Assembly (NCBI GenBank): GCA_028821455.1
Contig: JAPPGE010000031.1
Span: 1 to 64,000, forward strand
DNA length: 64,000 nt
Source: a bacterium
GTDB taxonomy: Bacteria; Pseudomonadota; Alphaproteobacteria; SP197
Reading direction: 5' to 3'
Numbering within the stretch: the first letter of the stretch is position 1; each line of letters begins with the position of its first letter. Of the stretch, positions 2,860 through 19,918 are shown piece by piece. A program made the position numbers and the translations under genes. The notes beneath the pieces were generated by a model. The model was not told the origin of the DNA. It saw only the letters and a program-made list of their open reading frames with translations, and searched no databases.

Positions 2860-3638
2860 GCCCCCTGGTGCATCCGCGAATCAAGGTAGGCTCGGGCCAG
2901 TTCGACAAGACGTTCCCTGCCAAAACTCGGTTCATGACCCGCGTGAACCACCGTCACGGGCAGTGTCATCAGTCGCTCCATGGTCTGGCAGTAGGTGGAC
3001 ACATCGGATTCAGGCAACTGATCGAGGAGCGGTCCGTCATAGATCGCATCGCCCGAAAAAAGCGTTCCCGTCTGCTCTTCCCACAAGCCGACACTGCCCG
3101 GGGAGTGGCCTGGAAGGTGCAACACCTCGAAATGCCGGTTGCCAATGGAGACCACGTCTCCCTCATCGACGATGCGGGTTGCCCGGGCCGGTTCGACCCG
3201 ATAGGCCCTGGCATCGTAGCCGGCATGGGGAAGCGCATCGATGAGGCACTCCGGCAGCGCGTAGCCGGCATTCTCCAGACACTCCACGACCTCCGGCTCC
3301 ATGTCTTCCCTGAAGAGGGAGAAGCGGTTGTCGGCATCTTCCATGATGGCGGCCTCCTGGCGCGACACCACGCGTTGGGAGAACTCGTGGAGGCCACCGA
3401 CGTGGTCGAAGTGCGTGTGCGTGGCAAAGGCGATGACCGCGTGGCCGAAGAGATCCGCAATCGCCGGCTTGAGTTCGGCAATACCCATGCCCGTATCGAC
3501 AAGGAGATCCGCTTCGGATCCCCGGACGTGCCAGATGTTGCAACGCCCCAGGGGATCGACATGGGGCTCGAAGACCAGCGTGATGTCGTCATCTATCCGT
3601 CGGCGCTCGAACCAGGTGTCGGCAATTCGGAAGGTCAT
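2856..3638 (-). CDS. MBL-fold metallo-hydrolase
   Basis: THTHFDHVGG metal-binding motif, LPGHSPGSVG, FSGDAIYD. Confidence 0.88.
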   Translation of the reverse strand: MTFRIADTWFERRRIDDDITLVFEPHVDPLGRCNIWHVRGSEADLLVDTGMGIAELKPAIADLFGHAVIAFATHTHFDHVGGLHEFSQRVVSRQEAAIMEDADNRFSLFREDMEPEVVECLENAGYALPECLIDALPHAGYDARAYRVEPARATRIVDEGDVVSIGNRHFEVLHLPGHSPGSVGLWEEQTGTLFSGDAIYDGPLLDQLPESDVSTYCQTMERLMTLPVTVVHAGHEPSFGRERLVELARAYLDSRMHQGA

Positions 3639-4327
3639 GGCTGATTCCCGAGCGGTTCCGGTTCGTCATGATGCCATGCAGCGCCCTGTCGGCAAGCGAT
3701 GATCCGGACGCGTATCGGTGTCGGCCGGCCACCGGCCGCATTGTTGTTGACTTGCGGACAGTTGGAGATGACGGCGAGAACGTCCCGCTCCGCCCTGAGA
3801 TCGACCCGGTCGCCCGGTGCGGACGGACTGTCGACGAACGTGCGTTCCGCCAGCAGGAATTCCTCGCGGACAGGAACGTGGCAGAAGAAGTTGACGTTGG
3901 AAACGATGTCCCGCCAGCCCAGGCCATGCGGCGCCAGCGCCTTGAGAAAATTCTCGCGGCATCCGGGCATGCCGGTGACGCCGTAGAGCATCGCGTTGGA
4001 GGGTTCGCTGCAGCAGCCGGCGATGGTGTCATGAAAACCGCAGGTGTCTGCAATGATGGTGAAGAGCGGCCGCGCACGATCGGAATAGAGCACGTGACCC
4101 CGGGTCAGCCGCAGCGTTCCGCTCTTCTTCACGGTGTTGGGTGCGTGATAGCGCTCCGCGGTATCGGCGGCGTTGTAGCACAGGAAATCGACACCCTGGC
4201 GTCCCTCGAGATCGATGATGCGCAGCACCTCGCCGCGACGGACAATGCCGGACCACGGCGCTCCAGGCGCCACCAGATCATCTCGCAAGAGGCTTTCCGT
4301 GCCGACGGCGTCCCTGTCTTCAGACAA
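3635..4327 (-). CDS. Urea carboxylase-associated family protein (DUF1989)
   Basis: GRQGVDFLCYNAADTAERY...ADTCGFHDTIAGCCSEPSN...NVNFFCHVPV, as in DUF1989 proteins. Confidence 0.8.
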   Translation of the reverse strand: MSEDRDAVGTESLLRDDLVAPGAPWSGIVRRGEVLRIIDLEGRQGVDFLCYNAADTAERYHAPNTVKKSGTLRLTRGHVLYSDRARPLFTIIADTCGFHDTIAGCCSEPSNAMLYGVTGMPGCRENFLKALAPHGLGWRDIVSNVNFFCHVPVREEFLLAERTFVDSPSAPGDRVDLRAERDVLAVISNCPQVNNNAAGGRPTPIRVRIIACRQGAAWHHDEPEPLGNQP

Positions 4328-5078
4328 CGGTCATGCCCCCGTCGACGGGCAGAATGGCGCCGGTGATGTAGGAGCCGTCATCCGAAACGAGAAACGCCAC
4401 GGCGCCGGCAATCTCCTCTGGATGTCCCACGCGGTTGAGGGGCACAAAGCGCTCCAGCCAGGTGCGGCGCTCCTCCGGATCGTCGAGCCAACCTTCCAGC
4501 ATCGGCGTGTCCACCGGCCCGGGCAGGATGGCATTCACCCGGATGGCGGGCGCGAGTTCGGCGGCAAACTGCATGGTGAGACCCAATTGCCCCGACTTGG
4601 CAGCGCTGTAGGCACTGCAGACCGAAACCTTGTCTCCCATGACAGCGTTGACCGACGCGACATTGACGATGGTGCCACCGCTCTTCGCCATTGCTCGTGC
4701 GGCGGCGCGCGACGTTCTCATGACGGCGCCAAGATTGATGGCAAGCGCATCTTCCCAGTCGCCATCGTCGAGACTGTCGACGGGCGTCGCCGGAAAGGTT
4801 CCGGCGGCGTTGACGAGAATGTCGAGTCGGCCTCCCCATGCGGCCGCCGCGGCGACCGCGTCGTCACCGCCCGTTCTCGTGGAAAGATCGACAGGGCAGC
4901 CTTCCGCGCTTCCGCCCCCTGCCCTGATACGGTCAACGACAGCCGTGAGCCGCTCCTGACGGCGCCCGACAATGAAGACCCGGGCGCCCTCTCCGGCCAG
5001 ACGCAGTGCCGTCGCTTCGCCAATCCCCGACCCGCCCCCCGTCACAAGGGCGACCTTGTCATCGATGCCGCGCGCCAT
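4320..5078 (-). CDS. SDR family oxidoreductase
   Basis: TGGGSGIGEA, NAAG, YSAAKSG; start placed at MARGIDDKVALVTGG. Confidence 0.87.
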   Translation of the reverse strand: MARGIDDKVALVTGGGSGIGEATALRLAGEGARVFIVGRRQERLTAVVDRIRAGGGSAEGCPVDLSTRTGGDDAVAAAAAWGGRLDILVNAAGTFPATPVDSLDDGDWEDALAINLGAVMRTSRAAARAMAKSGGTIVNVASVNAVMGDKVSVCSAYSAAKSGQLGLTMQFAAELAPAIRVNAILPGPVDTPMLEGWLDDPEERRTWLERFVPLNRVGHPEEIAGAVAFLVSDDGSYITGAILPVDGGMTVV

Positions 5079-5209
5079 GGGTGCATTCTCCAGATTCCGG
5101 AAGGACCATGGTGCGCCCTCAAAGCGGTGCCTGCAACGCTCGATGGTTGCCGTGCCGCCACGGCCTCGCCTATCGTCGGTGCCCGTGGCGGCATGGAGCA
5201 TGAAGGACC

Positions 5210-5971
5210 ATGGGACGGTTCAAGGGAACATCGGCGCTGGTGACCGGTGCCGCCTCCGGGATCGGTTTGCTGACCGTTCACCGCCTCCTCGAGGAAGGCG
5301 CCCGGATCGCGATGAGCGACATCGACGAGGCGGGGCTGGCCGCGGCCGCCAGCCCCCTGGGGTCATCCGTCGTCGCCATCCACCATGACGTGACATCTGA
5401 GGACTCGTGGACGGCGGCGATCGCCGAAGCCGGGAATGCCAACGGGCCGATTGCGGTTCTCGTCAACAGCGCCGGAACGGGCCGCTCCACCAATGTCGAG
5501 GAGACGACACTCGAGGACTGGCGCCGGGTCATGGCCGTCAACGCCGACGGGACGTTCCTGGGATGCAAGCATGCGGTCATCGCCATGAAACAGTCCGGAG
5601 GCGGATCGATCGTCAATCTCTCTTCCGTTTCCGGCCTCGTCGGCGGCCACAACCTTGCTGCCTACAACGCGAGCAAGGGTGCCGTGCGCCTGCTCACCAA
5701 GTCCGTTGCCCTCCACTGCGCCCGCAGGCGCTACGATATCCGCTGCAACTCGGTGCATCCGGCGTTCATCGAGACGCCGATGGTGGAGGCGCTCATCCAG
5801 CGCAGCCGCGACCCGGAAACCACCCGCAGGAAACTCGAAGCGCAGATCCCTCTCGGCCGCCTGGGCCAGGCGCACGAAGTGGCCGACATGATTCTCTATC
5901 TCGCCAGCACCGAGAGCCGGTTCGTGACCGGTGCCGAATTCGTCATCGACGGCGGCCTGACCGCCGCCTGA
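5210..5971 (+). CDS. SDR family oxidoreductase
   Basis: TGAASGIG, NSAGTG, YNASKGA, IDGGLTAA C-terminus. Confidence 0.88.
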   Translation: MGRFKGTSALVTGAASGIGLLTVHRLLEEGARIAMSDIDEAGLAAAASPLGSSVVAIHHDVTSEDSWTAAIAEAGNANGPIAVLVNSAGTGRSTNVEETTLEDWRRVMAVNADGTFLGCKHAVIAMKQSGGGSIVNLSSVSGLVGGHNLAAYNASKGAVRLLTKSVALHCARRRYDIRCNSVHPAFIETPMVEALIQRSRDPETTRRKLEAQIPLGRLGQAHEVADMILYLASTESRFVTGAEFVIDGGLTAA

Positions 5972-17045: not shown

Positions 17046-17885
17046 TCAGACTCCGATGGTGGCGCGTCGCATGATGCGGCGGAAGCCCTTCTCGCCGCGC
17101 ATGGCGGCAAGGTCGTCCTCAAGGGCAATGTGCATGGTGCAGCGGTTGTCCCAGATGACGACCGTATCGGGTTGCCAACGGAAGCGGCAGGTGAGGATGT
17201 CCCGGGTTGCGTGGCGCTCGAGGTGGTCCAGGATCATCCGGCCTTCCTCGTCTGTCATGCCTTCGATGCGATGGCAGTAGCTGGGACTGATGAGGAGTGA
17301 CTCCCGCCCGGTTTCGGGGTGCACGCGGACAAACGGGTGAGCCGTGATCTGTCGCTCCGATCCCTGCCTGTGCTGCATCTTCATGCCCTTGAAGGTGTCT
17401 GTGTGGCGTTGCGGCGTACCCGAATCGTGAATCGCACGGAGTTGGCGCAGAACGGTCTTCATGCCCTCCGACAGCATCTCCCAGGCAAGGTACATGTTGG
17501 CAAACAGCGTGTCTCCACCGACCGGGGGAACCTCAAGAGCATAGAGAACAGCTCCGGCCGGTGGTTGTTCGCGAAAAGTCATGTCGGTATGCCAGAGATG
17601 ACCGAAATTGATGACCTCGTCGGGCTCCTTGACGATTTCGATGAGTTCAGGAAAGCCGTCGATGCCATGCACGAAAGGGTATTCCTCGAGACGACCGAAG
17701 CGACGTGAAAAGGCGACCTGCTGCTCGGGCGTCAGTTTCTGGTCTCTAAAGAACAGGACGAGATGCTCCAGATAGGCGTCGCGCAATGCGGTCCATGTCG
17801 AGTCATCCAGTGCCCGAGACAGGTCGATCCCCGTCACCTCAGCGCCGATGGCCGCGGAGTAGGGATGTACCGCGAAGTCGGACAT
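17046..17885 (-). CDS. TauD/TfdA family Fe(II)/2OG dioxygenase
   Basis: GHLWHTDMTFRE (HxD), TVVIWDNRCTMHIA. Confidence 0.88.
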   Translation of the reverse strand: MSDFAVHPYSAAIGAEVTGIDLSRALDDSTWTALRDAYLEHLVLFFRDQKLTPEQQVAFSRRFGRLEEYPFVHGIDGFPELIEIVKEPDEVINFGHLWHTDMTFREQPPAGAVLYALEVPPVGGDTLFANMYLAWEMLSEGMKTVLRQLRAIHDSGTPQRHTDTFKGMKMQHRQGSERQITAHPFVRVHPETGRESLLISPSYCHRIEGMTDEEGRMILDHLERHATRDILTCRFRWQPDTVVIWDNRCTMHIALEDDLAAMRGEKGFRRIMRRATIGV

Positions 17886-18007
17886 GGTAAGCGCCTCCGA
17901 ATACCGGGCTCATAGTAATGCTCTGACAAGGAGCGTCACCAACGCGATCCTCTTCGAGCGATCTTCCTCGGGAGGCGTTCCGCCAGCGCATGTGTCTCTT
18001 CGCACTG

Positions 18008-19918
18008 CTACGTCATGTTCCCTTGACAGCCCGGCGGACAGGCGATGACAAGAGCCTCCGCGAGATCGGCCAGGTCATCGGGCCAGTAGATCATCGGGCG
18101 CGGTCTTGCCGCACCGAGTGCGCTGTCGGGACGGCAGGCCAGTACCGGCAGGACCCAGCGCCGGGGAAAGGCTCCCAGTCCATCGGCCGCTCCCGTCAGG
18201 GCGCCGGCGATGGCAGCGTTGGTGTCGGTATCCCCTCCCCTCCCTACTGTCGTCACCAGGGTCTCCTCGATCGTGTCGCCCCGTGCGAGGTGGCAGAAGG
18301 CATTCCGGAAGGCAATGAGAACCCACCCCATGTCGTGGCCGTCAAAGGCCTCCGGCCAGATGCCGGCGACAGCGTCATCGAGGCAGTCCGAAATCTCCTG
18401 CGTGGCGCAATGGGCCCGGGCCACGGCGATCATGGCGTTGCGGTCGCCGGACCGCAGTCCCTCGGCGATGGCGGCGGCAAGAACGCCACAGGCGTCGACA
18501 CAGACCGGATGTGGATGGGTCAGCCTTGAATCATCACGGGCCGTCCGGTCCGCGAGACCCGGGTCGCGGGCCCATATGCCGACAGGCGCAATGCGCATGA
18601 GAGATCCGTTGGCCTGGCTCTCCACGCTGGCCGAGGACCGGGCGGCCGCAGCCTTCAGTCCATAGGCAGCGCGAGAGGCGGGGCCGAGTGCCTGGGCAGT
18701 AGTGTTCCCGCAATCGAAGGGACCGGACTGCAGCCACGCGCCGTAGGCGGCAGCGGCCGCCTCCTCGTCATGGCGCCCGGTGCTGACGAGCGTCCTGGCA
18801 AGAGCAATGGCAAGTTCACTGTCATCCGTCGCCTGACCGGCGAGGATGTCCCACTGCCCACCATCCTCGAGGTCACGTACGCCCCCGGGGTAGAGCCGGC
18901 GTATCGTACTCCCTGCCATGAATTCCACCAGTGCGCCCAGGTTGTCGCCGACCACCTGGCCGAAGAGACAACCCCTGGACCGGTCGAGCACGGAGTCACT
19001 CACGGTTGCGGGCCACGCAAGCTCAACCTTCCTCCGTGACGGCTCCTTGCAGCGCCGCGGCGGCCACGAACGGGTGGCCAGTTCACGGGCGGCGGCGGGC
19101 GCCCCGGCGAAACACCACCGGACGTGGCTGACGCCATCCCGGGAGTAGACGGCCTCCCTGCCGGTTTCATCGAGAAGCACGCCGCCGGCACCCCGCAGCA
19201 GCGCGTGGCCGGCAGCATAATCGATGCCCCGTGGCCCACCCAGGGAGAGGGTCGCAACGCCGTCTCCGACCGCCACCCGGGCCAGTCTGTAGGCGATTCC
19301 CGGCAACGCGACGAACCGTGCCGGCGCCACGGCGCGGCCCCATGCAACCGGCTTGACCGCTGCGGTGTGAGCAACGAAGACACGCGCCTTGCCGTCGAGT
19401 TCATCCGCGGCGAGATCGACCGACACTTCGTCACCATTGCGGAGCAGGTTGGCGTGGCCCTCTGCCCAGGCGATGAGATCGCGGCCGCGATCAGGGCTCA
19501 TGGGTGCGCAGACGACGCCGAGCACCGGCACTCCGTCGTCGAGCAAGGCGACCGACACCGAAGAGCCGCGATATCCCTGAAGCCATGCCCACGTGCCGTC
19601 GTGTGGATCCACCAGCCAGCAACGGGATGATCCGTCACCGGGACGGGCCGGTGTTTCCTCCCCCACGAAGCGCGCGGGCAGGAAGGCCGTGAGCCGCATG
19701 GCGAGATGGTTCTCGATCTCGACGTCGACGTCGGCCTTGTCACCGGCGCCACGCGGGCCCCCCGGACGACGCGATTCCCTGACCAGCATGTCTGCAGCTT
19801 CCGAGACCGCGTCGATCACCGGCGCCAGAAGAGACGATACCTGCACCCTTGTTCTCCGGAGTCTTCCTCTCAGGCGAGCATAGCCCATCCGGAGCAACCT
19901 TCTCGGATTGTCTGGCAT
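18008..19918 (-). CDS. Fusion protein: N-terminal inositol monophosphatase-family domain + C-terminal ADP-ribosylglycohydrolase domain
   Basis: GEETPARP, WLVDPHDGTWAW, GIDYAAGHALLRGAGG (IMPase); GCLFGQVVGDNLGALVEF, ATDDSELAIALA, GRGGDTDTNAAIAGALTGA (DraG/ARH); one uninterrupted ORF. Confidence 0.87.
   Translation of the reverse strand: MPDNPRRLLRMGYARLRGRLRRTRVQVSSLLAPVIDAVSEAADMLVRESRRPGGPRGAGDKADVDVEIENHLAMRLTAFLPARFVGEETPARPGDGSSRCWLVDPHDGTWAWLQGYRGSSVSVALLDDGVPVLGVVCAPMSPDRGRDLIAWAEGHANLLRNGDEVSVDLAADELDGKARVFVAHTAAVKPVAWGRAVAPARFVALPGIAYRLARVAVGDGVATLSLGGPRGIDYAAGHALLRGAGGVLLDETGREAVYSRDGVSHVRWCFAGAPAAARELATRSWPPRRCKEPSRRKVELAWPATVSDSVLDRSRGCLFGQVVGDNLGALVEFMAGSTIRRLYPGGVRDLEDGGQWDILAGQATDDSELAIALARTLVSTGRHDEEAAAAAYGAWLQSGPFDCGNTTAQALGPASRAAYGLKAAAARSSASVESQANGSLMRIAPVGIWARDPGLADRTARDDSRLTHPHPVCVDACGVLAAAIAEGLRSGDRNAMIAVARAHCATQEISDCLDDAVAGIWPEAFDGHDMGWVLIAFRNAFCHLARGDTIEETLVTTVGRGGDTDTNAAIAGALTGAADGLGAFPRRWVLPVLACRPDSALGAARPRPMIYWPDDLADLAEALVIACPPGCQGNMT

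Follow-up and report, generated by a model that had tools for sequence, protein, structure and literature searches.

Why an inositol monophosphatase (IMPase)-type phosphatase and a DraG-type ADP-ribosylglycohydrolase (ARH) should be carried on one polypeptide, and what such a protein may do, is the question raised by an ORF on the minus strand at positions 18008-19918 of the window, i.e. the whole 64,000-nucleotide stretch of DNA analysed here. The ORF encodes a single protein of 636 aa, in which Pfam recognises Inositol_P (PF00459, residues 63-263, E 1.3e-22) and ADP_ribosyl_GH (PF03747, residues 316-587, E 8.7e-57, whole model, 1-287 of 287). Together with the fold matches described below, these hits bear out the reading of a single-ORF fusion put forward by a first-pass annotation of the locus. 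A GTG at 19846, with an RBS-like GGAG (19854-19857, minus strand) 7 nt upstream, is kept in all four gene-carrying species of the genus, and residues 1-31 evolve almost neutrally in the genus comparison (dN/dS 0.45-0.98). On these two grounds, GTG 19846 is the likely translation start, giving a coding sequence at 18008-19846 (minus strand) of 612 aa, a length similar to that of several relatives (591-613 aa), and ORF residues 1-24, which extend the longest frame to 19918, are probably untranslated.

The first-pass annotation had weighed the possibility that this frame was a merger of two genes that relatives encode separately. Instead, the same single ORF is present in the MAGs of three sister species (83-87%), and ten further loci encode the fusion (44-53%): four plasmids, of Azospirillum ramasamyi, A. 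brasilense, Pseudomonas luteola and Rhodobacter sp. CZR27 (46-53%), five genomes of the Pseudomonas-containing family (49-50%), and one IMG/VR provirus contig (44%). One of these five genomes has a TGA inside the tblastn span, yet its called ORF of 604 aa spans both domains. Both halves are also under purifying selection in the genus, with dN/dS values of 0.12-0.20 (IMPase) and 0.17-0.32 (ARH). The joining of two genes through an assembly or sequencing error is ruled out by this selection and by the 13 further single-frame loci, which come from isolates, plasmids and MAGs, and we give it practically no probability.

All features of the two domains lie on the minus strand, and both catalytic signatures are intact, as had been proposed. 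The IMPase-type domain (residues 25-290, 19049-19846) has the fold of its superfamily and the motifs GEE, DPxDGT and xDxAAG, here the GEE metal motif (residues 86-88, 19655-19663), the metal/phosphate motif DPHDGT (residues 104-109, 19592-19609) and IDYAAG (residues 232-237, 19208-19225), which holds the third metal ligand, D233. GEE, D104, D107, G108, T109 and D233 are invariant in the 16 rows of the alignment. An inter-domain linker (residues 291-311, 18986-19048), nearly neutral in its evolution and of low model confidence, leads to the DraG-type domain (residues 312-636, 18011-18985), which has the fold, a full-length PF03747 match, the dinuclear metal residues and the TH motif of the DraG/ARH family. 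Its signature (GD..E, TDD.E, TH, GGDTDT) comprises GDNLGALVEF (residues 324-333, 18920-18949; G324, D325 and the ligand E332), the dinuclear-metal motif TDDSE (residues 364-368, 18815-18829; T364, D365, D366 and E368), T467 and H468 (18515-18520), and the metal motif GGDTDTN (residues 561-567, 18218-18238), all invariant in ten rows.

An AlphaFold (AF2) model built on the 16-row alignment reached a mean pLDDT of 79 and a pTM of 0.57. In this model the IMPase half matches SuhB (2qfl, TM 0.77 normalised by target) and the ARH half matches DraG (2woc, TM 0.82 normalised by target) and also 6drh, an ART toxin/immunity pair. Both folds are shown; the linker and domain arrangement of the model are not reliable (pTM 0.57, low-confidence linker). 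Neither half falls into a named equivalog. The N-terminal half shares fold and metal motifs with SuhB, CysQ and HisN, but it forms a separate clade and reaches none of the NCBIfam equivalog cut-offs for CysQ, HisN or SuhB: its best model is CysQ, with 58.8 bits where 228.8 would be required, followed by HisN (48.6 against 275.15) and the IMPase model PRK10757 (24.3 against 332). The CysQ model also picks up all 16 members, again far short of its cut-off. The C-terminal half has the fold and all metal motifs of DraG (Rhodospirillum rubrum 2woc; DraG-GlnZ complex 3o5t), but differs from it in scoring below the DRAG equivalog cut-off (TIGR02662, 129.8 against 337.05 bits), in its N-terminal phosphatase, and in an extra conserved C-terminal stretch (RPRP..YWP). 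It likewise has the ARH fold of the Tri1 immunity protein (6drh), whereas its score with the Tri1 model is 77 bits (E 1.1e-21) against a cut-off of 490 and no Tre1-type toxin is seen.

In phylogenetic trees, the IMPase halves of the fusions and lone Pseudomonas-type IMPases, so labelled from named plasmid relatives within the same clade, form one group (100/98) far from the paralogous IMPases in the window's own family as well as from housekeeping CysQ, SuhB and HisN. The ARH halves similarly group with a few lone ARHs (100/100), far from generic DraG relatives. The lone IMPases nest within the fusions, and a constraint keeping the fusions together was disfavoured (p-AU 0.03). The simplest history, whose direction rests on a distant IMPase outgroup, would have the fusion as the ancestral state, with one fusion event and then a single loss of the ARH half in a lineage common in Pseudomonas-type elements. 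The lone IMPases keep intact catalytic residues; no ARH remnant was found near those examined, nor an IMPase remnant near two lone ARHs. Since both halves also occur alone, their coupling is not obligatory, and the tight sequential chemistry on one substrate that had been suggested for the pair is not supported, each half persisting by itself.

The genome collections searched are samples. Within them, the fusion occurs in four of the ten genomes of the window's genus and was absent from other genera of the family and from the remaining Alphaproteobacteria among 385 sampled genomes. Strong matches (E <= 1e-30) are present in 57 of the 299 genomes of the Pseudomonas-containing family, five of them to full fusions and the remainder to the IMPase subfamily alone, often in two or three copies. 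KfrA-type, integrase and transposition genes lie near the lone IMPases, and about ten viral contigs (L135-L138, L140-L145, L148) carry lone members of the fusion's ARH clade (40-49%), which were recovered in scans with alignments, a scan with a single protein having given no match. The family is therefore mostly mobile cargo, and outside the window's genus the fusion lies on plasmids, islands and a provirus contig. The contigs with lone ARHs are sometimes long (L142 is on 338 kb), and at L141 the gene adjoins McrBC-type genes. On another viral contig, a lone IMPase of the fusion's family (L133:1547-2344) adjoins an inovirus Zot gene.

At four Pseudomonadaceae-type loci a Sel1-repeat gene overlaps the start of the fusion by 4 bp and a WYL-WCX regulator lies within 0.9-2.8 kb; at three of the four, a 185-212-aa gene overlaps the end of the fusion and a 500-aa gene lies upstream. 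Scored with a profile built from the WYL proteins of these Sel1-type loci, WYL genes are present at 7 of 13 fusion loci, compared with one of the 18 loci that have a lone IMPase (Fisher p 0.004, the loci not being independent). The association is suggestive only, because three of the seven positive loci (L114-L116) are near-copies and the WYL gene of L028 and L029 is 6-7 kb away. In two Rhodobacter-type loci a NUDIX gene lies directly downstream of the fusion, encoding a NUDIX domain followed by a C-terminal domain of about 270 aa without recognised family and lacking a fused DNA-binding domain (no HTH); it is intact in L139 (2850-4163) and apparently split into two ORFs in L029 (10761-12081, Rhodobacter sp. 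CZR27). Three alphaproteobacterial loci (L139:251-952, L029:8273-8887, L026:8195-8770) share a resolvase-like gene (NAIGFYWTLPVPW) divergent from the fusion, which could be a recombinase or regulator of the element. TM0106-type nuclease-helicases, REases, a type I RM system and a GajB-like helicase are encoded near several relatives.

A family of 300-500-aa proteins sharing a conserved stretch (IIYDSRVAAALGW) adjoins the fusion at L114:11638-13155, L115:6081-7631, L116:7737-9287 and L027:6298-7218, with no confident match in Pfam, NCBIfam, PADLOC or PDB, and a 125-aa protein (YKYYWWVFHKDSPC) without family match lies directly upstream at L027:8564-8938 and L112:8474-8851. Neither the fusion nor the Sel1 gene nor the operon partners without family are covered by a PADLOC model. 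On the Azospirillum brasilense plasmid (L028:4405-7132), a second ARH domain (in ORF 3208-5286) is followed by two calcineurin-like phosphoesterase genes; this set, 2-4.5 kb from the fusion, corresponds to the published pairing of ARG with a calcineurin-type phosphatase.

The closest known counterparts are the predicted anti-viral 'ARG-phosphatase' loci, in which an ARG shares a polypeptide with a phosphatase or lies next to one (Iyer et al., 2022; PMC9503650, section 3.8). As described in the text of that paper, they are accompanied by WYL or Nudix regulators (over 42% of systems), REases and helicases with no coupled ADP-ribosyltransferase, and are read, as a prediction and not from experiment, as counter-measures to viral ADP-ribosylation. 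Measured against this description, the fusion has a DraG-type ARG and a phosphatase in one polypeptide, and its relatives have WYL or NUDIX partners, REase or helicase neighbours and no ART among their annotated neighbours, several other neighbours matching no family. It departs from the same description in its phosphatase, an IMPase where rhodanese-phosphatase, calcineurin-like, HD and HAD types are given, in the Sel1-repeat partner of its relatives as against chaperones, and in the window copy, which stands without WYL, NUDIX or other partners. The text of the paper contains neither 'inositol' nor an IMPase partner, and a literature search, with most subscription journals outside its reach, found no paper naming both families together.

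Our best reading, held tentatively, is that the fusion is a bifunctional metal-dependent hydrolase, a variant of the predicted ARG-phosphatase systems, which would reverse foreign ADP-ribosylation. The enzyme activities, substrates, coupling of the halves and defence role that we infer are as follows. By homology, the C-terminal domain would use two metal ions to cleave an ADP-ribosyl or similar ribosyl bond, and the N-terminal domain would take the monophosphate off a small sugar- or nucleotide-phosphate. ADP-ribose bears no free monophosphate, and a simple succession of the two activities would therefore need a NUDIX-type cleavage in between: a NUDIX enzyme would divide the released ADP-ribose into AMP and ribose-5-phosphate, and the IMPase would perhaps act on what results, for example ribose phosphate. 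The NUDIX gene downstream of the fusion in L139 and L029 fits such a step and does not prove it. From the gene context in relatives, an accessory part for the IMPase in clearing ADP-ribose adducts is plausible; most relatives carry the fusion in the accessory genome, as cargo in settings of the conflict type where WYL or NUDIX genes are its partners.

The window's own genus presents another picture, in which catabolic neighbours make a metabolic role possible. Upstream of the fusion and divergent from it lies a region of SDR, MFS, glyoxalase-like, phosphoribosyltransferase and TRAP genes, about 90% conserved in four species. Downstream, the three sister species have genes for a solute-binding protein, an RraA-like protein and, on contigs that extend far enough, a TPP enzyme. 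The ARH half might accordingly hydrolyse a small N- or O-ribosyl metabolite that the IMPase half dephosphorylates, a catabolic or housekeeping-type function in nutrient use, which we consider somewhat unlikely overall: the metabolic context is confined to four close species, and the distant fusions sit on plasmids, islands and a provirus contig without those genes. In the window itself, a TauD dioxygenase gene (17046-18007) replaces the sisters' downstream genes, and this side of the fusion is a rearranged junction. Searches near the fusion in the genus gave neither a WYL nor a NUDIX relative. As the SDR-MFS-PRT block occurs as a block in no genomes other than the four that carry the fusion, the genus offers no clean empty site.

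An antitoxin or immunity function is a further alternative, in which the ARH half would guard against an ADP-ribosylating enzyme, as in Tri1-Tre1 or DraG-DraT, with the IMPase as an accessory. The structural match to 6drh and the E value of the Tri1 model, though its score is below cut-off, speak for it, but no annotated ADP-ribosyltransferase adjoins the fusion at any locus examined and DraT (PF07357) was found in 0 of 11 genomes. The latter search is uninformative, because the control genomes were equally silent, and a divergent ART is possible among the several neighbours that match no family; we regard this immunity function as decidedly unlikely. Processing of a nucleotide signal or NADP product, with CysQ-like removal of a 2'- or 3'-phosphate from phosphorylated ADP-ribose or an NADP-type molecule, either preceding or following cleavage of the ribosyl bond, seems still less probable: CysQ is the best NCBIfam model for the IMPase half, but at the distance from its cut-off given above, and lone IMPases persist without an ARH. 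The proposal of the first-pass annotation, ADP-ribose-1''-phosphate as substrate, lost ground because it needs a KptA/Tpt1-type source (PF01885), which a search of 11 genomes detected in a single one and in neither the window genome nor the three fusion-bearing sisters; with the halves living apart as well, that route is not supported. An unlikely further possibility is a mobile enzyme working in two steps for repair or resistance, whose IMPase and ARH would jointly erase and recycle foreign (or phosphorylated) ADP-ribose marks, Pseudomonas elements having kept the phosphatase alone as separate cargo.

Should the tentative reading as a defence against foreign ADP-ribosylation be true, a metal-dependent IMPase would join the phosphatases proposed as partners of ADP-ribosylglycohydrolases, and the fusions would provide compact single-protein examples on which to try the prediction that bacteria undo viral ADP-ribosylation. 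For the Pseudomonas-type 'inositol monophosphatase family' cargo gene, whose family is matched in 57 of 299 genomes, the phylogeny points to descent from the fusion family, and inositol housekeeping is an unlikely role for this common lone IMPase.
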